From assembly GCA_030655315.1 (NCBI GenBank), contig JAURVT010000029.1, positions 1 through 64,000 of the forward strand: DNA of 64,000 nt. Direction: 5' to 3'. The stretch comes from Nocardioidaceae bacterium. Its GTDB lineage: Bacteria > Actinomycetota > Actinomycetes > Propionibacteriales > Nocardioidaceae. Positions 1,443 to 56,682 of this stretch are shown piece by piece. Under the pieces are notes generated by a model. It had not been told where the DNA came from and ran no database searches. It saw nothing but the letters and a program-made list of their open reading frames with translations. Numbering within the stretch: the stretch's first letter is position 1; every line of letters begins with the position of its first letter. A program made the position numbers and the translations under genes.

Positions 1443-1516
1443 GTGGCGGTAGCTCAGCTGGTCAGAGCAGGGGACTCATAATCCCTGGGTCGTGGGTTCG
1501 AGCCCCACCCGCCGCA
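1443..1516 (+). tRNA. tRNA with anticodon CAU (elongator Met most likely)
   Basis: The cloverleaf folds fully. The acceptor stem GTGGCGG pairs with CCGCCGC (one U-G wobble), the D stem is GCTC/GAGC, and the anticodon stem GGGGA/TCCCT encloses the loop CTCATAA with anticodon CAT at 1477-1479. The T arm is GTGGG-TTCGAGC-CCCAC and A1516 is the discriminator. CAU could also be the lysidine-modified Ile2 tRNA; the GC-rich stem favours elongator Met but does not prove it. The 3' half from 1474 is the attL of the integrated element and is duplicated at 10766-10809. The tRNA is kept intact by the integration. Confidence 0.93.
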
Positions 1517-1517
1517 C
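1474..1517 (+). repeat. attL: 44-bp direct repeat copy 1
   Basis: This copy starts at the last base of the 5' anticodon stem strand and runs through the T arm and acceptor strand to one base past the discriminator. It is identical to 10766-10809. The two sequences diverge immediately on both sides (gggg before this copy, cgag before the other). It is the core and identity block of a tyrosine-recombinase attachment site in a tRNA gene. Confidence 0.93.
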
Positions 1518-1572
1518 GACCTGCGGAAACGCGAGTACTGAATCCCGTACAGAGGTTGCACAGAGGAGTATC

Positions 1573-2508
1573 TTGCCTCTCGTGACCCTCCGTCAACCCG
1601 AACGCGCAACCTCCGCACCCGACGACCTCCTCGTCCTGCTCGACGACTGGCAGGTCCACCTGCGGGCCAAGGGCCGCTCTCGGGCCACGATCAACTCCTA
1701 CGTCACCGTGGGCCGGGCGTTCATCGACCACGCGACCGAGCGGGGGATGCCCACCGCAGCGTCGTCGATCACCCGCGAGCACCTCGAGCTCTACCTCGCC
1801 GAGCTCCGCGACAGGGTGGCGCCGGCAACCTGCGCGAAGCACTACCGGTCGCTGCAGCAGCTGTTCAAGTGGCTGGCCGACGACGGGGAGATCACCCGCT
1901 CACCGATGGAGCGCATGACCGCGCCGACCGTGCCCGAGCAGCCGGTGCCGGTGCTCGCCGTCGAGCAGCTCGTCACGCTGCTCGACTCGTGCAAGGGCAA
2001 CACGTTCGAGAACCGGCGGGACATGGCGATCATCCGGCTCTTCGTGGACACCGGGATGAGGGCCGGGGAGCTCGCCGGGCTCTCGGTCGACGACCTGGAC
2101 CACGAGCACGCGCTCGCGCACGTGATGGGCAAGGGTGGCCGGGGTCGGGCGTGTCCGTACGGGGCCAAGACCGCCGACGCGCTGCGCCGCTACCTGCGCG
2201 CCAGACGCACCCACCCGCGTGCAGACCTGTCCTCGCTGTGGCTGGGCAAGAAGGGCCCGATGACCGACTCGGGCGTGCGTCAGATGCTCGAGCGCCGTTG
2301 CGAGGACGCCGGGCTGCCCCGGGTCCACCCGCACCAGTTCCGGCACACGTTCGCGCACATGTGGCTCTCCGAGGGTGGTCAGGAGCACGACCTGATGCGT
2401 CTGGCCGGGTGGCGTTCTCGGGAGATGGTCGGGCGCTATGCCGCGTCGGCCGCAGACGGTCGGGCCCGCGAGGCGCACCGCCGGATGGGCATCGGAGACA
2501 GCCTGTGA
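1573..2508 (+). CDS. Tyrosine recombinase/integrase 1
   Basis: A 311-residue site-specific recombinase. Residues about 18-115 form the N-terminal SAM-like DNA-binding domain. The catalytic domain shows Arg163 (GMRAGEL), a Lys in the GKGG turn near 187, His254-x-x-Arg257 (HQFRH), Trp280 in the usual His/Trp place, and nucleophile Tyr289 (GRYA). All catalytic positions are present, so the enzyme looks active. I chose TTG at 1573 because AGGAG ends five bases upstream; GTG at 1582 is the alternative. The open frame continues backwards into the tRNA, which is not coding. Being next to attL and read inward, it is the expected integrase of the element. It overlaps the next gene by 4 bases. Confidence 0.92.
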   Translation: MPLVTLRQPERATSAPDDLLVLLDDWQVHLRAKGRSRATINSYVTVGRAFIDHATERGMPTAASSITREHLELYLAELRDRVAPATCAKHYRSLQQLFKWLADDGEITRSPMERMTAPTVPEQPVPVLAVEQLVTLLDSCKGNTFENRRDMAIIRLFVDTGMRAGELAGLSVDDLDHEHALAHVMGKGGRGRACPYGAKTADALRRYLRARRTHPRADLSSLWLGKKGPMTDSGVRQMLERRCEDAGLPRVHPHQFRHTFAHMWLSEGGQEHDLMRLAGWRSREMVGRYAASAADGRAREAHRRMGIGDSL

Positions 2509-2957
2509 GCCGCACCAGGCGAGCGAAGGCCCACGCTCATCGCGTTCACCAGATCAACCCCGCGGTGGACCTCCTGTGCACCGAGGACGGTCACCTGCTG
2601 GGCAAGCTCACCCACGAGCCGCTCGGGGGACGACTCAAGCTGAGGGCGGTTGCCCGCGACGAACCCCCTCACGGAGTCCTCGCGTTCGTGCGCCGCCGCG
2701 AGCGTAAGTCTCAGACGACCGAGGACGACGCGGCCGAGTGGTCCATCGAGTGGGTCTGCTCTGCCTGCGTCCGTCAGGGGCGCCGCGGTGCAACCGCACC
2801 CCGGCGGATCCTGCTCGTCGTCCTGACGCCCCTCCTGACGTCCCTAGGGGGTCTCGAGGCAGGACGGTGCCAGGTCAGAGTCAGCCGATGGGCGATCGAA
2901 GCAGAGACTGCGCGCCGCGCCCAGACCGATCCCGTGGGCCAGCCGCACAAGGGATAG
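2505..2957 (+). CDS. Hypothetical protein in the integrase operon
   Basis: The GTG start overlaps the integrase stop as GTGA and gives a 150-residue basic protein. The N-terminal half has His- and Asp/Glu-rich stretches, and a VCSAC pair near residue 85 could be half of a metal site. A hydrophobic Leu/Val run follows around residues 100-112. I do not recognise the family. Tight coupling to the recombinase suggests a helper role such as recombination directionality or regulation, but that is inference. The C-terminal part has weaker coding character, so the true stop context deserves checking. Confidence 0.5.
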   Translation: MSRTRRAKAHAHRVHQINPAVDLLCTEDGHLLGKLTHEPLGGRLKLRAVARDEPPHGVLAFVRRRERKSQTTEDDAAEWSIEWVCSACVRQGRRGATAPRRILLVVLTPLLTSLGGLEAGRCQVRVSRWAIEAETARRAQTDPVGQPHKG

Positions 2958-3027
2958 CCTCCCAGTAGGTGTCCAGCCCGCGAGGGTGTGGTCCGCCCAT
3001 CGGCCAGGGCTAAACGGCCGGGAGCAC

Positions 3028-3073
3028 GACGTAGATGAGAGCCCCCACTGGGGCGCCTACGTCTGGTTCTCAT
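3028..3073 (+). promoter_or_regulatory. Stem-loop with a competing pairing in the leader of the early operon
   Basis: GACGTAG (3028-3034) pairs with CTACGTC (3057-3063) around an inner GCCCC/GGGGC stem. A second complementary pair, ATGAGA (3035-3040) with TCTCAT (3068-3073), crosses the first, so the two are mutually exclusive or form a pseudoknot. The structure ends six bases before the ribosome binding site of the gene at 3091. It could be an attenuator or leader switch, or a protein operator. Confidence 0.4.
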
Positions 3074-3090
3074 GCCCTGGAGCAACTCCG

Positions 3091-3372
3091 ATGCCAGACA
3101 CCCGCACCCCTGCGGACAAGACCCTCAGCGCCCAGATCGCCGCCAACACCCGCTGGGGCAACACCACCGACCGCTCGGCCGCTACGTCCGCCGCCCGGCG
3201 CGGCCTCCGCGCCAAGTTCGAGACGCAGGTCGACCCGGACGGCACGATGCACCCCGCTGAGCGGGAGCGCCGTGTCGAGTCGCTGATGAAGGCGCACATG
3301 CAGCGCATGACGCTGGCTGCGAAGAGGGCCCGTCAGCGCAAGTCCGGCGCCACCCGGACGGTCAACTCGTGA
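3091..3372 (+). CDS. Small basic hypothetical protein (first gene of early operon)
   Basis: A 93-residue Arg/Lys-rich protein. The start at 3091 is supported by GGAG eight bases upstream. The pattern AANTRW near residue 17, then AARRGLRAKFE, VDPDG and PAERERR, is one I associate with short proteins of actinobacterial phages and integrative elements; this is recollection, not a search result. The C-terminal half is probably helical and rich in Arg, so nucleic-acid binding is possible. It begins a chain of four genes joined by 4-base overlaps that ends in the RepA-type ATPase. Confidence 0.7.
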   Translation: MPDTRTPADKTLSAQIAANTRWGNTTDRSAATSAARRGLRAKFETQVDPDGTMHPAERERRVESLMKAHMQRMTLAAKRARQRKSGATRTVNS

Positions 3373-3740
3373 CCACGCGACACCACCCCAACCGCGGAGG
3401 CGGCTGGGGCGGCAGCAACGATCAGGTGTCCAGGCCGATCGACGACAGCCTAGCCGCCGGGTGCACCCGATCGGCGCGTACGCGCGTGACCAGCATCCGC
3501 GTGCCGACCGTGCCCGGACTCATGCCGACCGCGGACGTTCGGGCTGTCGAGCTTGCTCGCTCGGCGCCGTCGCCGGGCTCGAACGTGCGCCTGCAGCTGG
3601 GTGCGGCCAAGTGCGTCAACCTCACTGAGCTCGTGTCCTTCGTCCACTGGCTCGAGGCGGCCGGCGTGGTCGTCGTCGAGGGCAATGATGATGCCCTCGT
3701 CGCTGAGGTCGAGAGCGCACTCGGTCGGGGGCCGGCATGA
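3369..3740 (+). CDS. Hypothetical protein of the early operon
   Basis: A 123-residue protein starting at a GTG that overlaps the previous stop (GTGA) and ending in an ATGA overlap with the next gene. Residues 1-45 are polar and Gly/Arg-rich. From about residue 70 a compact domain appears, with the segment LVSFVHWLEAAGVVVVE suggesting a helix followed by a strand. No known motif is seen. Its position between two coupled genes makes it a real member of the operon. Confidence 0.6.
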   Translation: MTTRHHPNRGGGWGGSNDQVSRPIDDSLAAGCTRSARTRVTSIRVPTVPGLMPTADVRAVELARSAPSPGSNVRLQLGAAKCVNLTELVSFVHWLEAAGVVVVEGNDDALVAEVESALGRGPA

Positions 3741-3973
3741 GCGGCTCGCGCGCGTGGCTGCGCGTGGTCATCGTGCCCGAGAAGGGCCTTGCGTTCGTCC
3801 AAGGGCCCGGCGCCCGTGAGCTGATCGAGGAGGCCGGAGGTCGGGCGTTCTGGCTCGGCACAAAGCGTGCGTGGTCCACGAGCCCAGCGGTCGCCGGTGA
3901 CGTCCTGGCGCTCGCGCAGCTCGGCCGGCTCGCTGTCGCCTACGAGGGGCCCCGCGGGGGTGGGTCGGCATGA
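3737..3973 (+). CDS. Small hypothetical protein upstream of the RepA-type ATPase
   Basis: A 78-residue protein starting with ATG overlapping the previous stop and itself overlapping the ATPase start at 3970. The predicted pattern is strand (WLRVVIVP), a helix (ARELIEEAG), then strand and helix, so it could be a small folded alpha/beta protein. No motif is recognised. Translational coupling to the ATPase suggests a partner or regulator of replication, but nothing in the sequence proves this. Confidence 0.6.
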   Translation: MSGSRAWLRVVIVPEKGLAFVQGPGARELIEEAGGRAFWLGTKRAWSTSPAVAGDVLALAQLGRLAVAYEGPRGGGSA

Positions 3974-4977
3974 GCACCGACTACGACCTCGCGACTCAGA
4001 CCTCCACCGACAGGGAGTACTTGCGGCTCCGCGCCGCCGTCGTCGACGCACGGCACCTCGACCAGCTCCCGACACCGGCACCTCTCGTCGACGGTCTGCT
4101 CATGCTCGACTCGATCGCGTGGCTTCACGGCAAGCCCGGCCACGGGAAGTCGTTCCTCGCGCTCGACATCGCGTGCAGCGTCGCCTCCGGCCGGCCCTGG
4201 CGGGGTGAGCACACCACGTCGCCCGGTGTCGTCCTGTACGTCGTGGCTGAGGGCGCCGCCGGCATCCGGCAGCGGGTCGAGGCGTGGGAGACGTTCCACA
4301 GCACGCAGATCGCGGCCGGCCGGCTGAAGTTCCTGCCGGTCGCGGTGCAGCTGCTCGGTCCGTCTCTGGCCGCTCTGGTCGAGGTCGTCTCGGACTGGCA
4401 GCCGGCGCTCGTCGTGATCGATACGCAGGCCAGGGTCACGGTCGGCGCCGATGAGAACAGCAGCCTCGACATGGGCCGCTACGTCGACGCCGTGGAACGG
4501 CTGCGGGCAGCGAGCGGCGCGTGCGTCCTGACCGTCCACCACGAGTCCAGGGCCGGTGACACCCTCCGCGGGTCGACCGCGCTCGAGGGCGCCGCGACGA
4601 CCGTGCTGCGGGTCGTCAAGACCAGCTCGACGGTCCGGCTCGAGGTCACGAAGCAGAAGGAGGCACCGCCGCTGGAGCCCATGCAGGGCCGCCTCGCGGT
4701 CGTGGTGACCGACGGCAGATCGTCCGCGATCTGGTCCCACGACTGCTTGGGACCGCGAGGTGCAGCAGGGCAGAACGCCGACGCGATCCGGGACGCACTT
4801 CGGGACCACTTTGGGACCGACGGCGCGAGCACCAAGGAGCTCCGAGAGCACCTGGGGCTCGCCAAGTCGTCGTTCGACCGCGCGAAGGAATCGCTGCTAT
4901 CTCGGCGCGAAATTGTCAACCGCGGTGCCGACACAGTGCCCCGATGGTTCCTCGCCGGATCGGAGCTGCAGTCGTGA
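3970..4977 (+). CDS. RepA-type AAA_25 ATPase with C-terminal winged helix
   Basis: A 335-residue protein of the RepA/AAA_25 class (RecA-fold hexameric helicase relatives used by plasmids and satellites). Walker A GKPGHGKS is at residues 54-61 and Walker B LVVID at 147-151. A sensor-type His-His pair is at 190-191, and the GSTALEGAAT segment that follows is typical of the family. Residues about 283-328 look like a winged helix (STKELREHLGLAKSSFDRA). GGGACC/GGTCCC repeats lie inside its 3' coding end and directly after its stop, which is the arrangement expected if the protein binds its own iterons. It is the probable replication initiator of the element. Confidence 0.8.
   Translation: MSTDYDLATQTSTDREYLRLRAAVVDARHLDQLPTPAPLVDGLLMLDSIAWLHGKPGHGKSFLALDIACSVASGRPWRGEHTTSPGVVLYVVAEGAAGIRQRVEAWETFHSTQIAAGRLKFLPVAVQLLGPSLAALVEVVSDWQPALVVIDTQARVTVGADENSSLDMGRYVDAVERLRAASGACVLTVHHESRAGDTLRGSTALEGAATTVLRVVKTSSTVRLEVTKQKEAPPLEPMQGRLAVVVTDGRSSAIWSHDCLGPRGAAGQNADAIRDALRDHFGTDGASTKELREHLGLAKSSFDRAKESLLSRREIVNRGADTVPRWFLAGSELQS
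4732..4818. repeat. GGTCCC/GGGACC heptamers inside the RepA-type gene
   Basis: TGGTCCCA at 4732-4739 and TGGGACC at 4748-4754 form an inverted pair. Direct copies follow at 4789-4795 (CGGGACG, one mismatch), 4801-4807 and 4812-4818, spaced 12 and 11 bases, close to one helical turn. They fall in the linker before the winged helix and encode the repeated residues RD-x-L-RD-x-F. The same heptamers recur after the stop codon. Confidence 0.6.
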
Positions 4978-4978
4978 C

Positions 4979-5067
4979 GGTCCCAACGGTCCCAACCGGT
5001 CCCAGCGCCCACGCCACAAGCGGTCCCAGGTCCCACACCCCTATAGGGGGTGGGACCGCGTGGGACC
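4979..5067. repeat. Iteron-like array, candidate replication origin
   Basis: Five direct GGTCCCA copies (4979-4985, 4988-4994, 4998-5004, 5022-5028, 5029-5035) are followed by two inverted TGGGACC copies (5051-5057, 5061-5067). Between them sits the palindrome CCCCTATAGGGG (5038-5049), so 5029-5057 is one large hyphenated palindrome. Short regular spacing, position directly after a RepA-type gene and a central TATA step fit an iteron origin. An autoregulatory operator for the genes downstream is the alternative. Confidence 0.6.
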
Positions 5068-5089
5068 ACGGCCGAACGGGGGGTATCCG

Positions 5090-5461
5090 ATGAGCTTCAC
5101 GATCCTCACCACGTCGACGACCCGGCCGTGCGCGGACTGCGGCGCCGAGGTCCCACCGAGGTTCTCGCGGGTCGTCCAGGTCGGTGGCGGGTTCCGGCCC
5201 TGGTGCCCGCCCTGCCTCGCCGAGCGGGATCTCACCCGCTGGGACGCGATCCTCCAGCCCGTCGACGACCTCGTGCGCCTGCTCGGCGAGGAGCCGTACG
5301 AGCTCGCCGTCGTGGTACGTGACCTGGTCCACAGCAACCTCAGCCCACTGCACGTGCGCGCTGAGGCGGCCCGGCTGCTGAAGCGGCACCGCGGCGATGA
5401 GCGGGTGGCTGCGGCCCTCGCCCGGCTCGAGGCCGCGGTGCTCGCGAGGAGGCGGCGATGA
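5090..5461 (+). CDS. Small zinc-ribbon-like protein
   Basis: A 123-residue protein whose first 45 residues contain two Cys-x-x-Cys pairs (CADC and CPPC) about 22 residues apart, which can form a zinc ribbon. The remainder is helical and ends in Arg-rich ALARRRR. The start follows the iteron array, and a G-run just upstream serves as ribosome binding site. It overlaps the next gene by 4 bases. Nucleic-acid binding is plausible from the fold, but the family is not recognised. Confidence 0.65.
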   Translation: MSFTILTTSTTRPCADCGAEVPPRFSRVVQVGGGFRPWCPPCLAERDLTRWDAILQPVDDLVRLLGEEPYELAVVVRDLVHSNLSPLHVRAEAARLLKRHRGDERVAAALARLEAAVLARRRR

Positions 5462-5694
5462 CCGCCCGCCTGGTGCCGCTCGTGGTCGTCCGCCCCACGG
5501 CCGAGCGCCGGTCACGTCTGGCCGCGGCGGCGCCGGCGTGCTCCTGTCCGGTGCGCCGTCGCTGGCTCGACGGGTACGGGCGGCCCGCGCTGCTAGCGTC
5601 GGTCGCGCACCTGCCGGCGTGCTGGCCGCGCGCGCTCGAGGAGCCCCGCATGGTCATCGTGCGCGGCCTGCACAGCTCGGCGGACCTGTCGTGA
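5458..5694 (+). CDS. Small hypothetical protein
   Basis: A 78-residue Arg/Ala-rich protein with cysteines in ACSCP and PACWP, coupled by ATGA/GTGA overlaps to the genes on both sides. No domain is recognised. The tight overlaps are the main reason to accept it; the composition alone would not be convincing. Confidence 0.5.
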   Translation: MTARLVPLVVVRPTAERRSRLAAAAPACSCPVRRRWLDGYGRPALLASVAHLPACWPRALEEPRMVIVRGLHSSADLS

Positions 5695-6104
5695 CGCGCG
5701 ACCCGGTGACGGTCGCTCTCGAGGGCACCGACCACGACTCACGCCAGCGGCTCGCGAGGGTCCTCACGGTCGGGTCTCGTCAGGTGTCGACGAGCGGCGG
5801 CGCGGTCGACGTCGAGCTCGTCCGGCGGGTCGTCGCCGCACTGCTCGGGCCGTCGCCCGCCTTTCGCACGCGAAAGCAGATTGGACGGTCCGAGCCGGCA
5901 TGGCTCAGCGTTCGTCAGGTGACGGAGGAGCCGGGTGCCCCCTCATCGCAGACCGTGCGGAGCTGGGCTCGCTCAGCGCTCGCGGGAGGCGGTGAGGGGA
6001 CCCGGGTGCGACGCACAGCCGGCGGGGCATGGGAGCTCCGCGAGGACCACGTACGGGCCCGGATCGCCGGCCTCGAGCAGCAACGACAGGAGCAAACCGC
6101 ATGA
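5691..6104 (+). CDS. HTH protein, possible excisionase or small packaging protein
   Basis: A 137-residue protein beginning at a GTG overlapping the previous stop. Residues about 70-125 follow the pattern of MerR/excisionase-type helix-turn-helix proteins: WLSVRQVTEE, then SSQTVRSWAR, then a short wing RVRRTAGGAWEL. A recombination directionality factor or transcription regulator would fit this element. Because the capsid-like gene follows at once (overlap of 4), a small-terminase-like DNA-binding role is also possible. The HTH call is moderate; the role is inference. Confidence 0.55.
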   Translation: MTRDPVTVALEGTDHDSRQRLARVLTVGSRQVSTSGGAVDVELVRRVVAALLGPSPAFRTRKQIGRSEPAWLSVRQVTEEPGAPSSQTVRSWARSALAGGGEGTRVRRTAGGAWELREDHVRARIAGLEQQRQEQTA

Positions 6105-7123
6105 CCCAGACCCGCTTCCCCCTCGCTCAGCCGGTCAAGCACCCCGTGCCGGCGCTGGTGTCGCACCTGCGCGACCTTGCCAGCTCGTTCGGTCAGCCCG
6201 GGATCAGCTCGGCTGAGCGGGGCGCAAGGGCCCGTGAGGTCGCCGACGTGGCCCGCGACCTGCTCGACGCCGAGCGCGCCGTCGCAGGTGTCCTCCCGGC
6301 CCGAGCGCTGCCCGCCTTGCTCAACAGAGGGCTCGAGGACGCCGGGGTGCGCGACGCCCGCCGCGAGCTCGACGAGGTCCGAGCCGCGCTCGACTTCACC
6401 GGCCTCATGGGCACGGCCGTCGCCGCGGTGCCGGACGACCCGTTCGACGGCACGCCGCTGGTCGACCTCGCCACCCGAGTGACCGGCCATGCTGCGGGCC
6501 TCGTCGTGCCTGGCCTCGTCGACGTCGACGCCACGGGTGTCCTCAACCCGACCCTGCCGATCCCCGACGGCGAGACGTGGGTCGTGGATGACGTCGCGGC
6601 CGACAGCGACGCATGGCAGATCGCAGCCGCGCTCGTCTCGGTCTCACGCGAGGTCATCGACCACACCGATGACCGCGGCGCTGCGCTGCTCGACAGCGTC
6701 CTCCTGGCCCTCGTCGATCGCGCCGCTGAGGAGTACCTCGCCGGGCAGCTCGTCGAAGCCGCCACCGTCGCCGCAGCCGGCGCCAACCTGTCGACCGCGC
6801 TCGACACGGCCGAGGGCCTCGCCGGCGCCGCGCTCAACGGGGCCGCGGACCTCCTTGTCACGCACCCGGCCGACTGGCCCAGCGTCCGCCGAGCCGTCGC
6901 CGCGACCTGGCAGACCGACCCCCACCCCACCGCGGCCGTCTCCTGCGGGATGCCCCGCGGCACCGTCATTGTCACCGGACGCCGCGCACTCACCTTCCAG
7001 ACGACCGAGCCGCTCGCGATCTCCGAGGACAAGCCCCGCATGTGGAGCCGCGACCTGGCCTTCATGCGCGACGTGCTCGGCGTGGTCCGAGTCCCCGGCG
7101 CCGTGCACGCCGTCACCCTCTGA
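6101..7123 (+). CDS. HK97-fold major capsid-like protein
   Basis: A 340-residue protein with the domain layout of phage HK97-type capsids. Residues 1-100 are helical and charged, like a scaffold (delta) domain. Around 170-215 the segment SVSREVIDHTDD followed by a long helix matches the E-loop and spine-helix region. Residues 245-262 (NGAADLLVTHPADWP) match the A-domain helix start. The end has the typical order: GMPRGTVIVTGRRAL, an acidic stretch, then VVRVPGAVHAVTL. AGGAG lies eight bases before the ATG. The homology is by pattern, not alignment. No protease, portal or terminase accompanies it, which is unusual for a prophage and typical of satellites. Confidence 0.7.
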   Translation: MTQTRFPLAQPVKHPVPALVSHLRDLASSFGQPGISSAERGARAREVADVARDLLDAERAVAGVLPARALPALLNRGLEDAGVRDARRELDEVRAALDFTGLMGTAVAAVPDDPFDGTPLVDLATRVTGHAAGLVVPGLVDVDATGVLNPTLPIPDGETWVVDDVAADSDAWQIAAALVSVSREVIDHTDDRGAALLDSVLLALVDRAAEEYLAGQLVEAATVAAAGANLSTALDTAEGLAGAALNGAADLLVTHPADWPSVRRAVAATWQTDPHPTAAVSCGMPRGTVIVTGRRALTFQTTEPLAISEDKPRMWSRDLAFMRDVLGVVRVPGAVHAVTL

Positions 7124-7131
7124 GCCCCGCC

Positions 7132-7584
7132 GTGAACCCCGACCGCGCCGGCCACACGGGACACCTGCGAAGCGCCCCCGGCAACGAGCAGCTCGAGCGC
7201 GCTGACGTCATGTGGGGCGCCGTCGTCGACACCCTCGCCGGCGACGACGACCGCACCCGACGTCTGCTCAGGACGGCAGGCGCCGCCGTTGACACCGCCG
7301 ACCGCGCGCAGGTCGGAGCCGAGCTGCGCCACCTGCTCGGCACCATGCGTCACCTCGACGCCGACCGGTGCGAGCAGTTCATCAGCGGGTACGTCGTCCT
7401 CAAGCGCGACCCCCGCCCCGGCTGCCAGCTCCTCCGCTCAGCCGTCGTCGGCATCCTCCGCGAGCCCGCCGTCCAGCAACGCATGACCGCCCGCGTGCTC
7501 AACCACCACCGGGCCTACCTCATCCGGCACGGGCACACCCCCACCTCGAGCACCACCCCCACCCGGTCACGCCGCCGGCGCTGA
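7132..7584 (+). CDS. Hypothetical protein following the capsid-like gene
   Basis: A 150-residue protein; GTG at 7132 follows the capsid-like stop by eight bases (ATG at 7210 is a later candidate). The central part is helical, with regular heptads around residues 20-110, and the tail is Arg-rich (RSRRRR). No family is recognised. Being downstream of the capsid-like gene in the same operon, a structural or head-size role is conceivable, but the sequence does not show it. Confidence 0.5.
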   Translation: MNPDRAGHTGHLRSAPGNEQLERADVMWGAVVDTLAGDDDRTRRLLRTAGAAVDTADRAQVGAELRHLLGTMRHLDADRCEQFISGYVVLKRDPRPGCQLLRSAVVGILREPAVQQRMTARVLNHHRAYLIRHGHTPTSSTTPTRSRRRR

Positions 7585-7686
7585 CCGGACCTAAGTGCGT
7601 ACTGAGTCCTCGCATGCCCGGCACACAACGACGGGACTCACCGAGAACGAGAGACAGCAGGACCGTCGAATGAGACGATCCGCGCC

Positions 7687-8025
7687 ATGGGAGTTACCGA
7701 GGGTGCCAACCGCGCTGCCGCTGCCTACGGCTCGGTCCTCGCGGGCAAAGAGACCCAGAAGATCAGACAGATGATGGAGGCCGAGGCGGAGGCCCCCCAG
7801 CTCGCCGACGCACTCAAGCGCGCGAGATCAAGTGCCCAGCAGGTTCGCAACCAGCTCAACCTGGCCGAAGCGAAGATCGCCAAGCTGGAGAAGAAGTTGG
7901 CGAAGGCCCAGTCAGCTCTCGATGAACGAGACGCCAGCCTGGCCCAGCAGACCGAGCTCACGGATTACTGGAAGGGCCGGGCCTGGCACTTCGAAGTAGG
8001 CCCTGGAAGCCAGGCGCAGCAGTAA
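7687..8025 (+). CDS. Coiled-coil hypothetical protein
   Basis: A 112-residue protein, nearly all predicted helix. Residues about 25-95 carry heptad repeats rich in Ala, Leu, Lys and Glu (the LEKKLAKAQSALDERD stretch is clearest). It is set apart from the preceding gene by about 100 bases, so it may have its own promoter. Its Lys/Glu/Gln-rich composition is lower in GC than its neighbours. The family is not recognised; scaffold-like and toxin-antitoxin-like roles cannot be separated from sequence. Confidence 0.6.
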   Translation: MGVTEGANRAAAAYGSVLAGKETQKIRQMMEAEAEAPQLADALKRARSSAQQVRNQLNLAEAKIAKLEKKLAKAQSALDERDASLAQQTELTDYWKGRAWHFEVGPGSQAQQ

Positions 8026-8166
8026 CCGTTCGCAGAACACGTGGTTCTGTCGTCACGCGCTCGGCAAGCGCGGACCCCCGTTTTGGGTCACAGATCGCGC
8101 CGTCGGGGAGACCCCGCGCGTCTCCCTCTCTCTCTCTTGGCTCGAGCCAGAATTGCGACCGTCGCA

Positions 8167-8195
8167 GCCGATCAGCGCCAACAGGCGCGATCGGC
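8167..8195. terminator. Hairpin between convergent blocks of the element
   Basis: GCCGATC-A-GCGCC pairs with GGCGC-GATCGGC around the loop AACA, 12 base pairs with one bulge. It lies in the 290-base space (8026-8315) between the rightward gene ending at 8025 and the leftward gene ending at 8316, so it probably terminates both. Nearby are a CT-repeat tract (8123-8137) and the scattered complements CCAGAA/TTCTGG and ATTGCG/CGCAAT; no convincing gene is seen in this gap. Confidence 0.5.
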
Positions 8196-8315
8196 GGCGT
8201 TCTGGCGCAATGGGGCGCCGGACTGGTCACGGGCCCGCAGATCAGCGCACAGCGGCGCCGGACACTTCAGAATCACCCAACCCCCCAAGGCATCCGCAGT
8301 GATGAGGCCAGTTGC

Positions 8316-8981
8316 CTAGTCCACAGCTGGCGTCTCGGAAGCGTCGGGGTCCAGCGAGTAGCCGATGGCCTTGGCGAGGTCGAAGTCGTGCATCTCTATG
8401 ACGAGTTCCTCCTCGTCATCATCGCCGTCGTCCGGCCACGGAAGGGCTTCGAGGGCTCGCTCGAGCCTATCCAGATCTGCCTCGAGGTCGCGGATCGGAA
8501 GATAGCCAATGTGCGACAGCTTGAGCCCGTCAGGGAGTGCCAGCCAGTAACCAGTGGGCGGTCGGGTCCCGTACTTGTTGAACCGGCCTCCGGCTCGTGC
8601 GGCAGCCCAGGGATCAGGTCGATCCTCGTAGCTCACGGCACCCCACTCGTTGTGGTGCTCGATCAGGTCGCGCAGGTCTGTCACGAGCTTCTCGGTCGCC
8701 ATAGCGGGTAGGACCGCGCCGGCCTTGACGCAGCTTGCGCGCCACCGAAACAGAACGCGAGCGACCGAGATCAGAGACTCACCGAGGTCACTGACCTCGT
8801 CGGATAGCTCGTCGGCGCGCTCCCGTTCGGCGTCCGAGTCTCCCTTCGGACCAGCCTGCATCGACTCGAAAGCCGCCGCGAGCCGGCGCTGAGCCCGTCG
8901 CACCCTCTCGAGCGCTCCGAATGTCCGCAACAGCAGGTCACCCGGCAGCACGACCAGTACCGGTGGGTCCTCGGGCTCCAT
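8316..8981 (-). CDS. Hypothetical protein, last gene of the leftward operon
   Basis: A 221-residue acidic soluble protein. The N-terminal half is helical (residues about 20-110), and the C-terminal half holds aromatic-rich GTRPPTGYWLALPDG and an acidic DDGDDDEEELVIEMHD stretch. No motif is recognised. It lies 79 bases after the gene at 9061 in the same direction. In mobile elements this location, next to a recombinase and away from the replication block, often carries cargo such as anti-phage genes, but nothing in the protein demonstrates that. Confidence 0.6.
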   Translation of the reverse strand: MEPEDPPVLVVLPGDLLLRTFGALERVRRAQRRLAAAFESMQAGPKGDSDAERERADELSDEVSDLGESLISVARVLFRWRASCVKAGAVLPAMATEKLVTDLRDLIEHHNEWGAVSYEDRPDPWAAARAGGRFNKYGTRPPTGYWLALPDGLKLSHIGYLPIRDLEADLDRLERALEALPWPDDGDDDEEELVIEMHDFDLAKAIGYSLDPDASETPAVD

Positions 8982-9060
8982 CCGCCGAGGCTAAGGCGCC
9001 CGTCTCCGGTCTGTCAGCCACTCAATGCCGCCCGTCGCCCAGGCCGGACCACCTGCAGCC

Positions 9061-9522
9061 TTACGCGCGAGGCGTCGCTGATCGCTGCACCGGCACATCG
9101 ACGCCGTCAGGGTTCCCGTCCCACGTCACCCGCAGGGTCGCCGGGAACGATCCATCCCACGGCGTGAAGATCGTGAAGGACACCCGGTGGTCGGGCTCGA
9201 GGTCGACCCCGGTCGGCGCGCCCGCCACAATCTGGTCAGACGAGCCGCGCAGCGTCACGTTGGTGGCACGTCGGTGCCCGCGGTGGCGCAGCTCCCACTC
9301 GGACCCGGACAGCGGGTCGATCGTCCAACGCACCGCCTTGCGCTCCCGCTCGGCTGCGTCGCGCTCGGCTGCCTCCCGGTCGAGCCGCTCGTTGCGGTCG
9401 TTGGCGCGCTTCGCTTCATTCGCGGAGTCACGGGCCGCCTTCCGAGCGCTCACGGCGACCAGCGCCGACACCCCCGCGATGAGCCCGGAGAGGACACTTA
9501 CGACGAATGCGGCGACGGTCAT
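9061..9522 (-). CDS. Membrane-anchored coiled-coil protein with beta domain
   Basis: A 153-residue protein in three parts. Residues 4-26 are a transmembrane segment (FVVSVLSGLIAGVSALVAV). Residues about 28-65 are a charged helix with Arg/Glu heptads. Residues 66-150 look all-beta (WTIDPLSGSEWELRHRG, VTLRG, VSFTIFTPWDG). It has no signal-peptide cleavage site, so the beta domain is probably cytoplasmic or membrane-proximal. It starts nine bases after the DUF6907 gene in the leftward operon. The function is unknown; membrane tethering makes a sensor or exclusion role possible. Confidence 0.6.
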   Translation of the reverse strand: MTVAAFVVSVLSGLIAGVSALVAVSARKAARDSANEAKRANDRNERLDREAAERDAAERERKAVRWTIDPLSGSEWELRHRGHRRATNVTLRGSSDQIVAGAPTGVDLEPDHRVSFTIFTPWDGSFPATLRVTWDGNPDGVDVPVQRSATPRA

Positions 9523-9531
9523 CGCGTGAGG

Positions 9532-9813
9532 CTAGGCGACCGTCTGCGGCCCTGTCAGACGTTCGGCCAGGTCGACGGACGCCTCGAGCAGCCGGGCCAG
9601 CTCACGGGCCTCCTGCGGCTGCAGTTCCTCCACGGCGCTCCCGGTGACGATCCCCTCGAGCGCGACCGTCGTCATGCCGGTGAGCTCGTCGAGGCCGAGG
9701 TGCGTCGTGACGGGCTCCGGTAGGCCGAGGTCGGCGCTGAGGAGCGGCGCGCTGTGCAGGTCGGCGTCGAGCACGTCGTCGTGAGCCACGGCGCACCACG
9801 ACGGGCAGCTCAC
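9532..9813 (-). CDS. DUF6907-like small protein
   Basis: A 93-residue protein opening with CPSWCAVAH, the Cys-x-x-x-Cys-plus-His signature I associate with DUF6907, a family of short proteins common in actinobacterial mobile DNA. The GTG start overlaps the stop of recombinase 2 by 4 bases, so the two are translationally coupled. The C-terminal half is helical (QEARELARLLEASVDLAERL). The role is unknown; the Cys/His head could bind zinc. Confidence 0.65.
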   Translation of the reverse strand: MSCPSWCAVAHDDVLDADLHSAPLLSADLGLPEPVTTHLGLDELTGMTTVALEGIVTGSAVEELQPQEARELARLLEASVDLAERLTGPQTVA

Positions 9814-10667
9814 AGCCCCACCGCCGCAACCGCGGCACGCTTCGCGTCCTGCGGGACCGCCGTGTACCTCGCGGTCGTCTCAGGCTTGGAGTGCCCCATG
9901 AGCTCCTGCACCGCCCGCAGGTCCCGGGTCCCGGCGTACGCGGCCGTCGCGAGCCGGTGCCGCAACGTGTGCGCCGTCCAGTCCTCCCCGAGCGCCCGCG
10001 AGAGCTTGCGCGTGACGTCACCGGCCGACAGGTGCCCCCCGCGCTGGCCGGGGAACAGCCACCCGTCCGCGGTCACCCACTCGGCGTAGCGCCACCCCGT
10101 CCCGACCCTGCCGGCACGGCGCCGGGCGAGCTCGGCCTCGAGCGCCTCACCGAGCACCGGGTGCAGCGGCACCGTGCGCACCTTCCCGCCCTTCCCCGAG
10201 CGCACGACGAGCCGGTCAGGCTCCACGTCCCGGGTGTGCACCGCAGCGACCTCCATCGCCCTCAGACCCGCGAGCGCGGCCAGCATGAGCATCAGGGCGG
10301 TGCGGTCGTCCGCGGCCGTCAGAGCGTCCCTCAGGGCCCCGTCAGGGGCGGGCCGTGCGTACCCGTCAGGCACCCTCACCGCGTCGAGCGCGTCAGCCGG
10401 CGACGATGACAGCCGGCCCGTGCGGACCGCCCACCGGTAGAAGTGCCGCACCGACGTGCGAGCCGACTTCCGAGACTGCGGCGCCCACCCGTCGCGATCC
10501 ACGAACGCCGCGAGGTCGTCGCTCGTCACCGTCCACGGGTCAGGGCAGACCCGGGCGAGGTGGTGCAGGTAGTGCAGGTACAGCCGCAGCGTCGTCGGTG
10601 AGAGGTTCGCTGCGCGCTGCGCTGCTTCCCACCGTCTGATTGGGTCGTGCCAAGTGGTCTCGATCAT
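9810..10667 (-). CDS. Tyrosine recombinase/integrase 2
   Basis: A 285-residue site-specific recombinase. The catalytic set is complete: Arg136 (GLRAMEV), Lys159 (SGKGGKVR), His233-x-x-Arg236 (HTLRH), His259 (MGHS) and Tyr268 (ARYTA). Residues 10-95 form the core-binding domain. I start it at 10667 because AGGAG stands four bases upstream; the longer open frame has no such site. It sits 98 bases inside attR and reads inward, a mirror image of recombinase 1. The two recombinases differ in length and sequence and are not duplicates. It may be a second integrase, a resolvase-like partner, or the relic of another element. Confidence 0.9.
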   Translation of the reverse strand: MIETTWHDPIRRWEAAQRAANLSPTTLRLYLHYLHHLARVCPDPWTVTSDDLAAFVDRDGWAPQSRKSARTSVRHFYRWAVRTGRLSSSPADALDAVRVPDGYARPAPDGALRDALTAADDRTALMLMLAALAGLRAMEVAAVHTRDVEPDRLVVRSGKGGKVRTVPLHPVLGEALEAELARRRAGRVGTGWRYAEWVTADGWLFPGQRGGHLSAGDVTRKLSRALGEDWTAHTLRHRLATAAYAGTRDLRAVQELMGHSKPETTARYTAVPQDAKRAAVAAVGL

Positions 10668-10765
10668 GGTGCTCCTACAGGCGGGGACTGGACGTTTGAA
10701 GGTTCGTCGCAACCGCTGTAAACGCTGACGTCTCGGCATCCCGCACAAGGGTCAATAGGTCGAGC

Positions 10766-10809
10766 ACTCATAATCCCTGGGTCGTGGGTTCGAGCCCCAC
10801 CCGCCGCAC
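10766..10809 (+). repeat. attR: 44-bp direct repeat copy 2
   Basis: Exact copy of 1474-1517, the tRNA 3' half without its 5' half, so it cannot make a tRNA. Here the sequence after the discriminator reads CC followed by host DNA, which is the likely original 3' flank of the tRNA before integration. Confidence 0.93.
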
Positions 10810-47638: not shown

Positions 47639-47823
47639 GTCTCTCCTGGTGGTGGTGCGAAACGATGTCGGTCGCGACCGATCCGAGGCGCGTGCCTGGG
47701 GCCGGAGGGTCCGATGGACCCCAGTCTTTGGGGTACCGGGTGTGGTTCGTGCCACACACGCTCAAGGATTGGGACGATCTTGAGAAAGTTCCCGACCGCG
47801 ACGACCGGCCCCGGCGCGCCCGG

Positions 47824-48855
47824 TCAGAACAGGCCGGGCTGCAGCACCACCGGCCGGGACGGCGGGGCGGCAGGAGCCGGGCCGCGCACGCCGTCGCCGG
47901 CGAGCCCGTGCCGCTCGAGCAGCGGACGGACGCGCGAGGCGAGCCGGCCGGTGTACCAGGAGGCCGCGTACGGGCCGCGGTCGTAGAGCGCCTCGTAGCG
48001 GTCGAGCAGGTCGGGACGCTGCAGCCGCACCCACCGCATGAACCAGTCGCGGACCCCCGGCTCGAGGTGCAGGGCCATCGCGCTGACGGTGGTCGCGCCC
48101 GCCTCGGCGATGCGCTCGACCAGGGCCGCCAGGGTTGCGGTGTCGTCGGTGAGCCAGGGCAGCACGGGCGCGAGCATGACGTGGCAGGGGAGCCCGGCGT
48201 CGGTGACCGCACGGACCATCTCGAGCCGCGCCCGGGGCGACGGCGTGCCGGGCTCGACGCTCTCGTGCAGGGCGTGGTCGCCCACGGCGATCGAGACGCC
48301 CACCGACACCGGCACCCGGTGCGAGGCGTCCACGAGCAGGGGCAGGTCTCGGCGCAGCAGCGTGCCCTTGGTGAGGATCGACATCGGCGTCCCCGACGCC
48401 GCGAGGGCGGCGATGATCCCCGGCATCAGCCGGTAGCGGCCCTCGGCGCGTTGGTAGGGGTCGGTGTTGGTGCCCAGCGCGACCGTCTCGTGCGTCCACG
48501 ACCGGCGTGCCAGCTCGCGCCCGAGCACCTCGGCGACGTTGGTCTTGACCACGATCTCGGTGTCGAAGCCGGTGCCGGTGTCGAGCTCGAGCCAGGAGTG
48601 GGTGCCGCGGGCGAAGCAGTAGACGCAGGCATGGGTGCAGCCCCGGTAGGGGTTGACCGTCCACGAGAACGGCAGCCGTCCCTCGCCGCCGGGCGGTTGC
48701 CGCACGTGGTTCAGCGCCGAGCGGGCCCGCACCTCGTGGAAGGTGACGCCGGCGAACTCGGGCGTCGTCACCGAGCGCACCAGGCCCGTGGCCGAGGTGA
48801 GCCCGGGCAGAGCGCCGTCCTCCTCGACGTCGGTCCGCTGGCTGCTCCATCGCAC
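47824..48855 (-). CDS. Radical SAM protein, Rv2578c family
   Basis: A 343-residue radical SAM protein. The 4Fe-4S cluster motif CTHACVYC (Cys-x3-Cys-x2-Cys) is preceded by the NPYRGC stretch that is typical of the Rv2578c/SplB-like group, and later has ALGTNTDPYQ and SILTKGT. The group is conserved in actinobacteria; its substrate is not established. It stands alone between the ferritin-like gene and the divergent NIF3 gene. Confidence 0.88.
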   Translation of the reverse strand: MRWSSQRTDVEEDGALPGLTSATGLVRSVTTPEFAGVTFHEVRARSALNHVRQPPGGEGRLPFSWTVNPYRGCTHACVYCFARGTHSWLELDTGTGFDTEIVVKTNVAEVLGRELARRSWTHETVALGTNTDPYQRAEGRYRLMPGIIAALAASGTPMSILTKGTLLRRDLPLLVDASHRVPVSVGVSIAVGDHALHESVEPGTPSPRARLEMVRAVTDAGLPCHVMLAPVLPWLTDDTATLAALVERIAEAGATTVSAMALHLEPGVRDWFMRWVRLQRPDLLDRYEALYDRGPYAASWYTGRLASRVRPLLERHGLAGDGVRGPAPAAPPSRPVVLQPGLF

Positions 48856-56260: not shown

Positions 56261-56667
56261 GACGAGTCGGTCGGACGGTCGCGTGAGGTGGTCCGCCACC
56301 TCCCGAGGAAGGTCCGGACTCCGAAGAGCAGGGTGGTGGGCAACGCCCACCCACGGTGACGTGCGGGACAGTGCCACAGAGAACAGACCGCCAGCGGCCC
56401 TGGCGCCCACGGGCGGCAGGGTGCGGGCAAGGCTGAAACGGTGGTGTAAGAGACCACCAGCGCCCCGGGTGACCGGGACGGCTAGGTAAACCCCACCCGG
56501 AGCAAGACCAAGAGGCCCCCGTCACGGCGGGGGCTGCGCCGGTGCCCGAGGACTGCTCGTCCGAGCCGGCGGGTAGGTCGCCAGAGCCCACCGGCAACGG
56601 TGGGCCTAGACAGATGGCCGTCCGGGGCTCGCGCCCCGACAGAATCCGGCCTACAGACCGGCTCGTC
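56261..56667 (+). ncRNA. rnpB: RNase P RNA (class A)
   Basis: The ends pair as helix P1: GACGAGTCGGTC (56261-56272) with GACCGGCTCGTC (56656-56667). Just inside are the conserved CR-I block (GAGGAAGGTCCGGACT) and near the 3' end ACAGAATCCGGCCTACAGA, the universal core of bacterial RNase P RNA. AGAGCAGGGTGGTGGGCAAC and the GGTAAACCCC block are also as expected. It cleaves tRNA 5' leaders. Length 407. Confidence 0.95.
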
Positions 56668-56682
56668 CGCCCTCCTGACCGC

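Follow-up and report, generated by a model that had tools for sequence, protein, structure and literature searches.

The 64,000-nucleotide stretch of DNA analysed here (the window; contig JAURVT010000029.1 of a Nocardioidaceae bacterium) carries, at a tRNA-Met gene, an integrated element of 9,292 bp from repeat to repeat that encodes two recombinases, a replication ATPase and a putative HK97-type capsid protein. It is probably a capsid-carrying phage satellite that depends on a helper, a reading to which we assign a probability of about 0.72. Established here are the anatomy of a tRNA-integrated element, a family of stand-alone elements of ~9.3 kb, the uniformity of their size and the conservation of the capsid operon. 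A preliminary description of the same DNA had proposed a capsid-encoding satellite. The capsid-encoding integrative element stands; excision, shell assembly, use of a helper and transfer, that is, satellite behaviour proper, are what we infer from it.

Element anatomy and the putative capsid gene

An exact 44-bp repeat delimits the element (Table 1). It occurs only twice in the window and was not matched in 100 shuffles, and thus is not expected by chance; its left copy forms the 3' end of the tRNA-Met gene. Because the repeats are exact and the left one is the end of a tRNA gene, the 9,292 bp are shaped like an integrated element, with the hallmarks of integration into a tRNA gene: a site-specific recombinase is encoded, and both boundaries are formed by direct repeats of the tRNA 3' end. 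Indeed, the genes at both ends encode tyrosine recombinases (Phage_integrase). The ATPase is related to phage primase and helicase families (PHROG, up to E 1e-46), and directly 3' of its gene seven copies of GGTCCCA/TGGGACC lie within 110 bp where 0.02 are expected, the densest 7-mer cluster of the whole window. The attachment (att) repeats, the two recombinases, the RepA-type ATPase with its iterons and a helix-turn-helix (HTH) gene, all listed in the preliminary description, are confirmed. The remainder of the window has the appearance of ordinary chromosome on a quick gene list. In a related genome, 34 bp of the tRNA-Met gene recur ~1.2 kb from the tRNA gene itself (L045:472-505), perhaps as the trace of a further small insertion into this target.

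Among the gene-like open reading frames (ORFs) of the element, comparison with Pfam and PHROGs revealed no terminase, portal, protease, tail or conjugation gene, as had been claimed, and no TraB/FtsK-type translocase or relaxase. The last two bear on whether it is an actinobacterial integrative and conjugative element, or a mobilisable relative of one, that acquired a phage gene. A tRNA-targeted tyrosine integrase and a replication gene would suit such an element, but the translocase and relaxase are missing and the conserved part of the family described below is the capsid operon; we regard this origin as extremely improbable.

The frame at 6101-7123 is intact and encodes 340 amino acids. Searched as a single sequence, the protein had no match in Pfam, PHROGs, PDB sequences, INPHARED phages or GTDB contigs, and its identification therefore required a profile of homologues. 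Built from six homologous sequences, this profile matches the capsid half, at the C-terminus, of capsid-protease fusions in small actinophages (hhalign E 4.6e-6, probability 86.5). The match covers residues 160-340, the N-terminal half being unmatched. As controls, 40 column shuffles reached a probability of at most 0.4 and the reversed profile 0.1; when the window sequence was left out of the profile, the match dropped to E 9e-4. The homologue from Haloactinopolyspora alba (locus L015) matches PHROG 2263, 'major head protein', with E 3e-4, and the other end of the PHROG 'major head protein' family is matched by the proteases encoded beside the capsid genes of two other relatives (L006 and L027). 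Scans of IMG/VR with alignments of the capsid protein, and of PDB sequences with the capsid-family profile, gave no match. At the level of sequence comparison, the profile matches support the assignment of the 6101-7123 product as a putative HK97-type major capsid protein. The preliminary description had named the lack of a capsid match for this product as a refuting outcome, and a match to a capsid family does exist. The capsid label was originally a guess and now has the support of the homologue profile, not of the protein alone.

A family of elements of near-constant length

Homologues of the capsid protein were found in five other actinobacterial genomes: three of the host family (27-37% identity), one of them Nocardioides caeni, together with H. 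alba and one further actinobacterium. The family is rare. It occurs in 4 of 342 genomes of the host family, with one weak match discounted, and as isolated finds across several hundred further actinobacterial genomes. Three genomes gave weak profile matches (G143, G434 and G629; E 1e-3 to 7e-8) that were discarded because the loci concerned (L016-L018) are ordinary chromosomal stretches with no evident phage genes; those in G724, G884 and G1194 lie close to E 1e-3 and are partial.

The att repeats allowed five complete elements to be delimited, at three tRNA sites in two actinobacterial families: the window element (9,292 bp, tRNA-Met), L005 (9,512 bp, tRNA-Val), L006 (9,488 bp, tRNA-Val), L007 (9,065 bp, tRNA-Val) and L015 from H. 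alba (9,127 bp, tRNA-Thr). Their mean length is 9,297 bp (standard deviation 182, range 9,065-9,512 bp). The sixth capsid locus, L027, is cut by a contig end and stands outside these statistics. The att repeats are intact in all five, and none lies inside a prophage; the relatives, whose setting the preliminary description had wanted checked, are stand-alone elements and not pieces of complete prophages. The terminase, portal and tail genes that would mark a complete prophage were not found between the att sites of the window element.

The start of the capsid gene shares 4 bp (ATGA or GTGA) with an HTH-type gene at each of the six capsid loci; the capsid frame is open in all of them, at only ~27-55% identity. 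An S78 prohead protease lies directly 3' of the capsid gene at two of the six, L006 (Pfam E 1e-22) and L027 (PHROG 1.5e-15), and a shorter post-capsid protein ending in a similar Arg-rich tail is encoded in L005, L007, L015 and, by a weak link, in the window element. The window protein probably corresponds to the C-terminal portion of the S78 protease protein that L006 and L027 encode, as suggested by a weak hhalign score of 28 against at most 17 in 60 shuffles; it gave no profile match to phage proteases. Tape-measure genes are present in L005 and L006 (PHROG E 1e-33 and 8e-24) and absent from the window element, and the elements are thus equal in size despite differing contents. The L005 tape-measure gene is related to those of a group of small actino-siphophages and of other actinophages. 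These genes (L005:9728-13150 and L006:5657-8218) take up ~2.6-3.4 kb of a 9.5-kb element and are unusual in that no other tail gene was seen in either.

L015 also encodes a small terminase (PF23931, E 2e-18). The preliminary description had held that terminase or portal genes next to homologous loci would count against a satellite. A small terminase does lie within L015, but no large terminase or portal is among the Pfam and PHROG matches listed for any of the five complete elements, where the relatives are covered by the best 25 of 39 and 25 of 31 families and by single scans. In L015:7274-8060 (minus strand), the intact small terminase gene comes after an HNH endonuclease gene of which only the C-terminal half is present. 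Over 112 bp this fragment shares 77% identity with one carried by a prophage in that genome (L064:6735-6844); the stretch is possibly a packaging-site region.

The second recombinase is likewise shared: int2 is homologous to that of L015 (E 4e-57; L015:12137-13297) and that of L006 (E 4e-18; L006:4753-5598), and beside int1 it may act in multimer resolution or excision. A DUF6907-type gene adjoins it in the window element and in L006. L005 (6880-7060), L006 (10979-11475) and L015 (11723-11833) have repeat arrays, each of a different sequence, that lie inside a presumed initiator gene or follow it and recall the iterons within phage O-type initiator genes.

The principal alternative is that the element is the remnant of a decayed prophage, in which packaging, portal and tail genes were lost and the integrases, replication genes and capsid gene were left by chance. 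Tailed phages are clearly the source of the capsid, S78 protease and tape-measure genes, a truncated HNH fragment lies beside the small terminase of L015, and cryptic prophages are numerous in actinobacterial genomes (PMC10023795). However, independent decay would not repeatedly yield 9.07-9.51 kb and the same operon with its 4-bp overlap, six open capsid frames at such divergence are not expected from it, and the att repeats are intact in the five complete elements. Since decay would have had to end several times over in almost identical length and gene order, with the capsid frame open, we consider it unlikely. The preliminary description had named it as the main alternative; the near-constant length and conserved capsid operon of diverged relatives weaken it. 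A small terminase without a large terminase or portal, in combination with uniform size and the HTH-capsid overlap, favours a maintained satellite family.

Proposed helper dependence and relation to known satellites

As a helper-dependent satellite, the element would be excised at its att sites by int1 and/or int2 upon phage entry or prophage induction and replicated from the iterons by the RepA-type ATPase. The HTH-capsid-(protease) operon would make the element's own HK97-type shell, and the helper phage would supply portal, large terminase and tail. Such uniform length may reflect a packaging limit: a small shell would hold a single copy, or a shell of the helper's size an integral number of them. 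The host genomes of the window element, L005 and L007 yielded no member of the two portal families sought, and matches to the large terminase (TerL) there are weak and partial, so that for the window element the helper would come from outside. In the window host, the partial phrog_2 (TerL) matches fall within long ORFs and may be no more than generic ATPases. The host genomes of L006 and L015 have portal genes elsewhere in the genome.

Several observations weigh against the satellite reading. Neither a small terminase nor a packaging signal was recognised in the window element. When resident prophages of the L006 and L015 hosts were searched for a helper, only weak protease, tape-measure and integrase similarity and the shared HNH fragment were found, and no helper was assigned. 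A search for the empty site in related genomes did not resolve it at base level: the relatives keep the PIG-L/tRNA-Met order, and the right flank of the window element is not adjacent there. AlphaFold, in two runs on the window and L015 capsids, gave mean predicted local distance difference test (pLDDT) values of 37 and 39, too low to establish the fold; with the poor L015 model, as a hint at most, the first eight PDB matches in Foldseek were all phage capsid or prohead chains, at E 0.3 or worse. The truncated HNH gene in L015 indicates some erosion in the family.

A helper-independent element, whose capsid protein serves a purpose other than transfer (for example defence by interference with the head assembly of an infecting phage, or a compartment), would explain the missing portal, TerL and most tail genes and the presence of an S78 protease at only two of six loci. 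A pure defence gene, however, needs neither excision and replication genes nor equal length, and the tape-measure genes of two relatives and the small terminase of a third point to particle formation. The accessory genes had no PADLOC match beyond generic coiled-coil ones. Such a use is, in our estimate, very unlikely.

The satellite reading places the element close to kinds already described. In the available part of a survey of Mycobacterium (PMC10654092), candidate phage-inducible chromosomal islands (PICIs), including phiRv1 and phiRv2, are defined as regions with an integrase and a major capsid gene that fall short of a full phage; members with tyrosine integrases lie in tRNA genes. Some of the candidates have helicases, and some have terminase or scaffold genes. 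Compared by description only, the window element falls within this working definition. The earlier suggestion that RepA-type replication and a capsid gene by themselves make a distinct satellite type is therefore not upheld. The uniform 9.3-kb size and the two recombinases are features here that this part of the survey does not state for the Mycobacterium candidates, and the window capsid has no database relative by single-sequence search. To judge from this source, the present family seems to belong to a known kind of element, within which its uniform size would make it a new variant.

Capsid-forming PICIs (cf-PICIs), as summarised in PMC10690885, borrow nothing but tails; their own genes provide capsid, protease, portal, connectors and both terminase subunits. 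The window element resembles them in having its own capsid gene and, presumably, in needing a helper, but no portal, large terminase or connector is among the matches listed for it or for the four other complete elements. The Streptomyces satellites MulchRoom and MiniFlayer, likewise actinobacterial and with their own capsid gene, have a large terminase, portal, scaffold and adaptor and no obvious replicase (PMC10690885), whereas the window element is the reverse, with replication genes and no packaging set. Classical PICIs act on their helper through a small terminase or a capsid-redirecting protein; a small terminase was recognised in L015 only, and none in the window element. Small (14-18 kb) actino-siphophages such as Emperor, RRH1 and Decurro, whose capsid-protease fusion matches the capsid-family profile, are complete phages that encode portal, terminase and tail; capsid and protease are separate genes, in that order, in the present elements. 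Actinobacterial elements of <15 kb were earlier suspected as satellites (PMC10023795).

A more specific proposal is possible, though we hold it only tentatively: these would be undescribed, size-locked (~9.3 kb) actinobacterial satellites that swap only the shell, sometimes with protease, tape measure or small terminase, and borrow portal and motor; the constant length would mean one genome per very small capsid, below triangulation number T=3. As portal and motor would be borrowed, foreign portals would have to dock on satellite shells. Tailed-phage shells below T=3 are a size class that is predicted and rarely seen (PMC7762592). If true, a satellite supplying the shell but neither portal nor motor would stand between classical PICIs, which have no capsid, and cf-PICIs, which have all head and packaging genes, and its near-fixed genome length would allow a direct test of capsid size. 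Nocardioidaceae and Jiangellaceae, in which searches with single sequences overlook them, would also join Mycobacterium and Streptomyces as hosts of capsid-bearing satellites.

Remaining genes and minor observations

Table 1. Features of the window element and its target site (window coordinates)
Feature	Position	Strand	Evidence
tRNA-Met (CAT) gene, integration target, intact at left side	1443..1517	+	ARAGORN, Rfam
attL, 44-bp exact repeat, tRNA gene 3' end	1474..1517	+	repeat search
int1, tyrosine recombinase, frame open from GTG 1492	1582..2508	+	PF00589 E 2e-28; PHROG integrase
Small protein, PHROG 2842 (unknown function)	3091..3372	+	E 3e-5
Hypothetical protein, 4-bp overlap with each neighbour	3369..3740	+	no Pfam/PHROG family
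Small protein, homologue in sister element L007	3737..3973	+	E 9e-15
RepA-type AAA_25 replication ATPase/helicase	3970..4977	+	PF13481 E 8e-36; phrog_906 E 1e-46
Iteron array, 7 x GGTCCCA in both orientations, presumed replication origin	4961..5070	.	7-mer clustering; TRF
Small protein with Cys pairs (zinc-finger-like)	5090..5461	+	DUF7563 E 0.0055 only
Hypothetical protein	5458..5694	+	no Pfam/PHROG match
Helical and HTH protein, stop overlapping capsid start by 4 bp (ATGA)	5691..6104	+	same arrangement in 6/6 loci
Putative HK97-type major capsid protein	6101..7123	+	homologues; profile match to actinophage capsids E 4.6e-6
Post-capsid protein, Arg-rich tail	7210..7584	+	alignment; hhalign
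Coiled-coil protein	7687..8025	+	coiled-coil type matches only (Pfam, PHROGs)
Accessory protein of unknown function	8316..8981	-	no informative match in Pfam, PHROGs, PADLOC
Accessory protein, N-terminal hydrophobic segment and coiled-coil-like part	9061..9522	-	sequence; no informative Pfam/PHROG/PADLOC match
DUF6907 protein	9532..9813	-	PF21848 E 4e-7
int2, second tyrosine recombinase	9810..10667	-	PF00589 E 7e-24
attR, 44-bp exact repeat	10766..10809	+	repeat search

Some of the smaller genes also have relatives in the sister elements. The HTH protein is related to HTH proteins at the corresponding place there, and L015 has a zinc-finger gene (PF24623) at a position similar to that of the zinc-finger-like gene of the window element. 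The DUF6907 protein has a homologue in L005 (E 2e-4), which in turn is related to a protein of L006 (E 2e-34). L007 (5480-14568) has a GC content of 0.646 against 0.722 in its flanks and encodes DUF2742, a RusA-like resolvase and membrane or coiled-coil cargo.

Elsewhere in the window, a tRNA-Arg called by ARAGORN at 47810-47894 scores below the Rfam gathering threshold and may be a false call. An ordinary RNase P RNA (class A) lies at 56263-56669 (Rfam, 259 bits).

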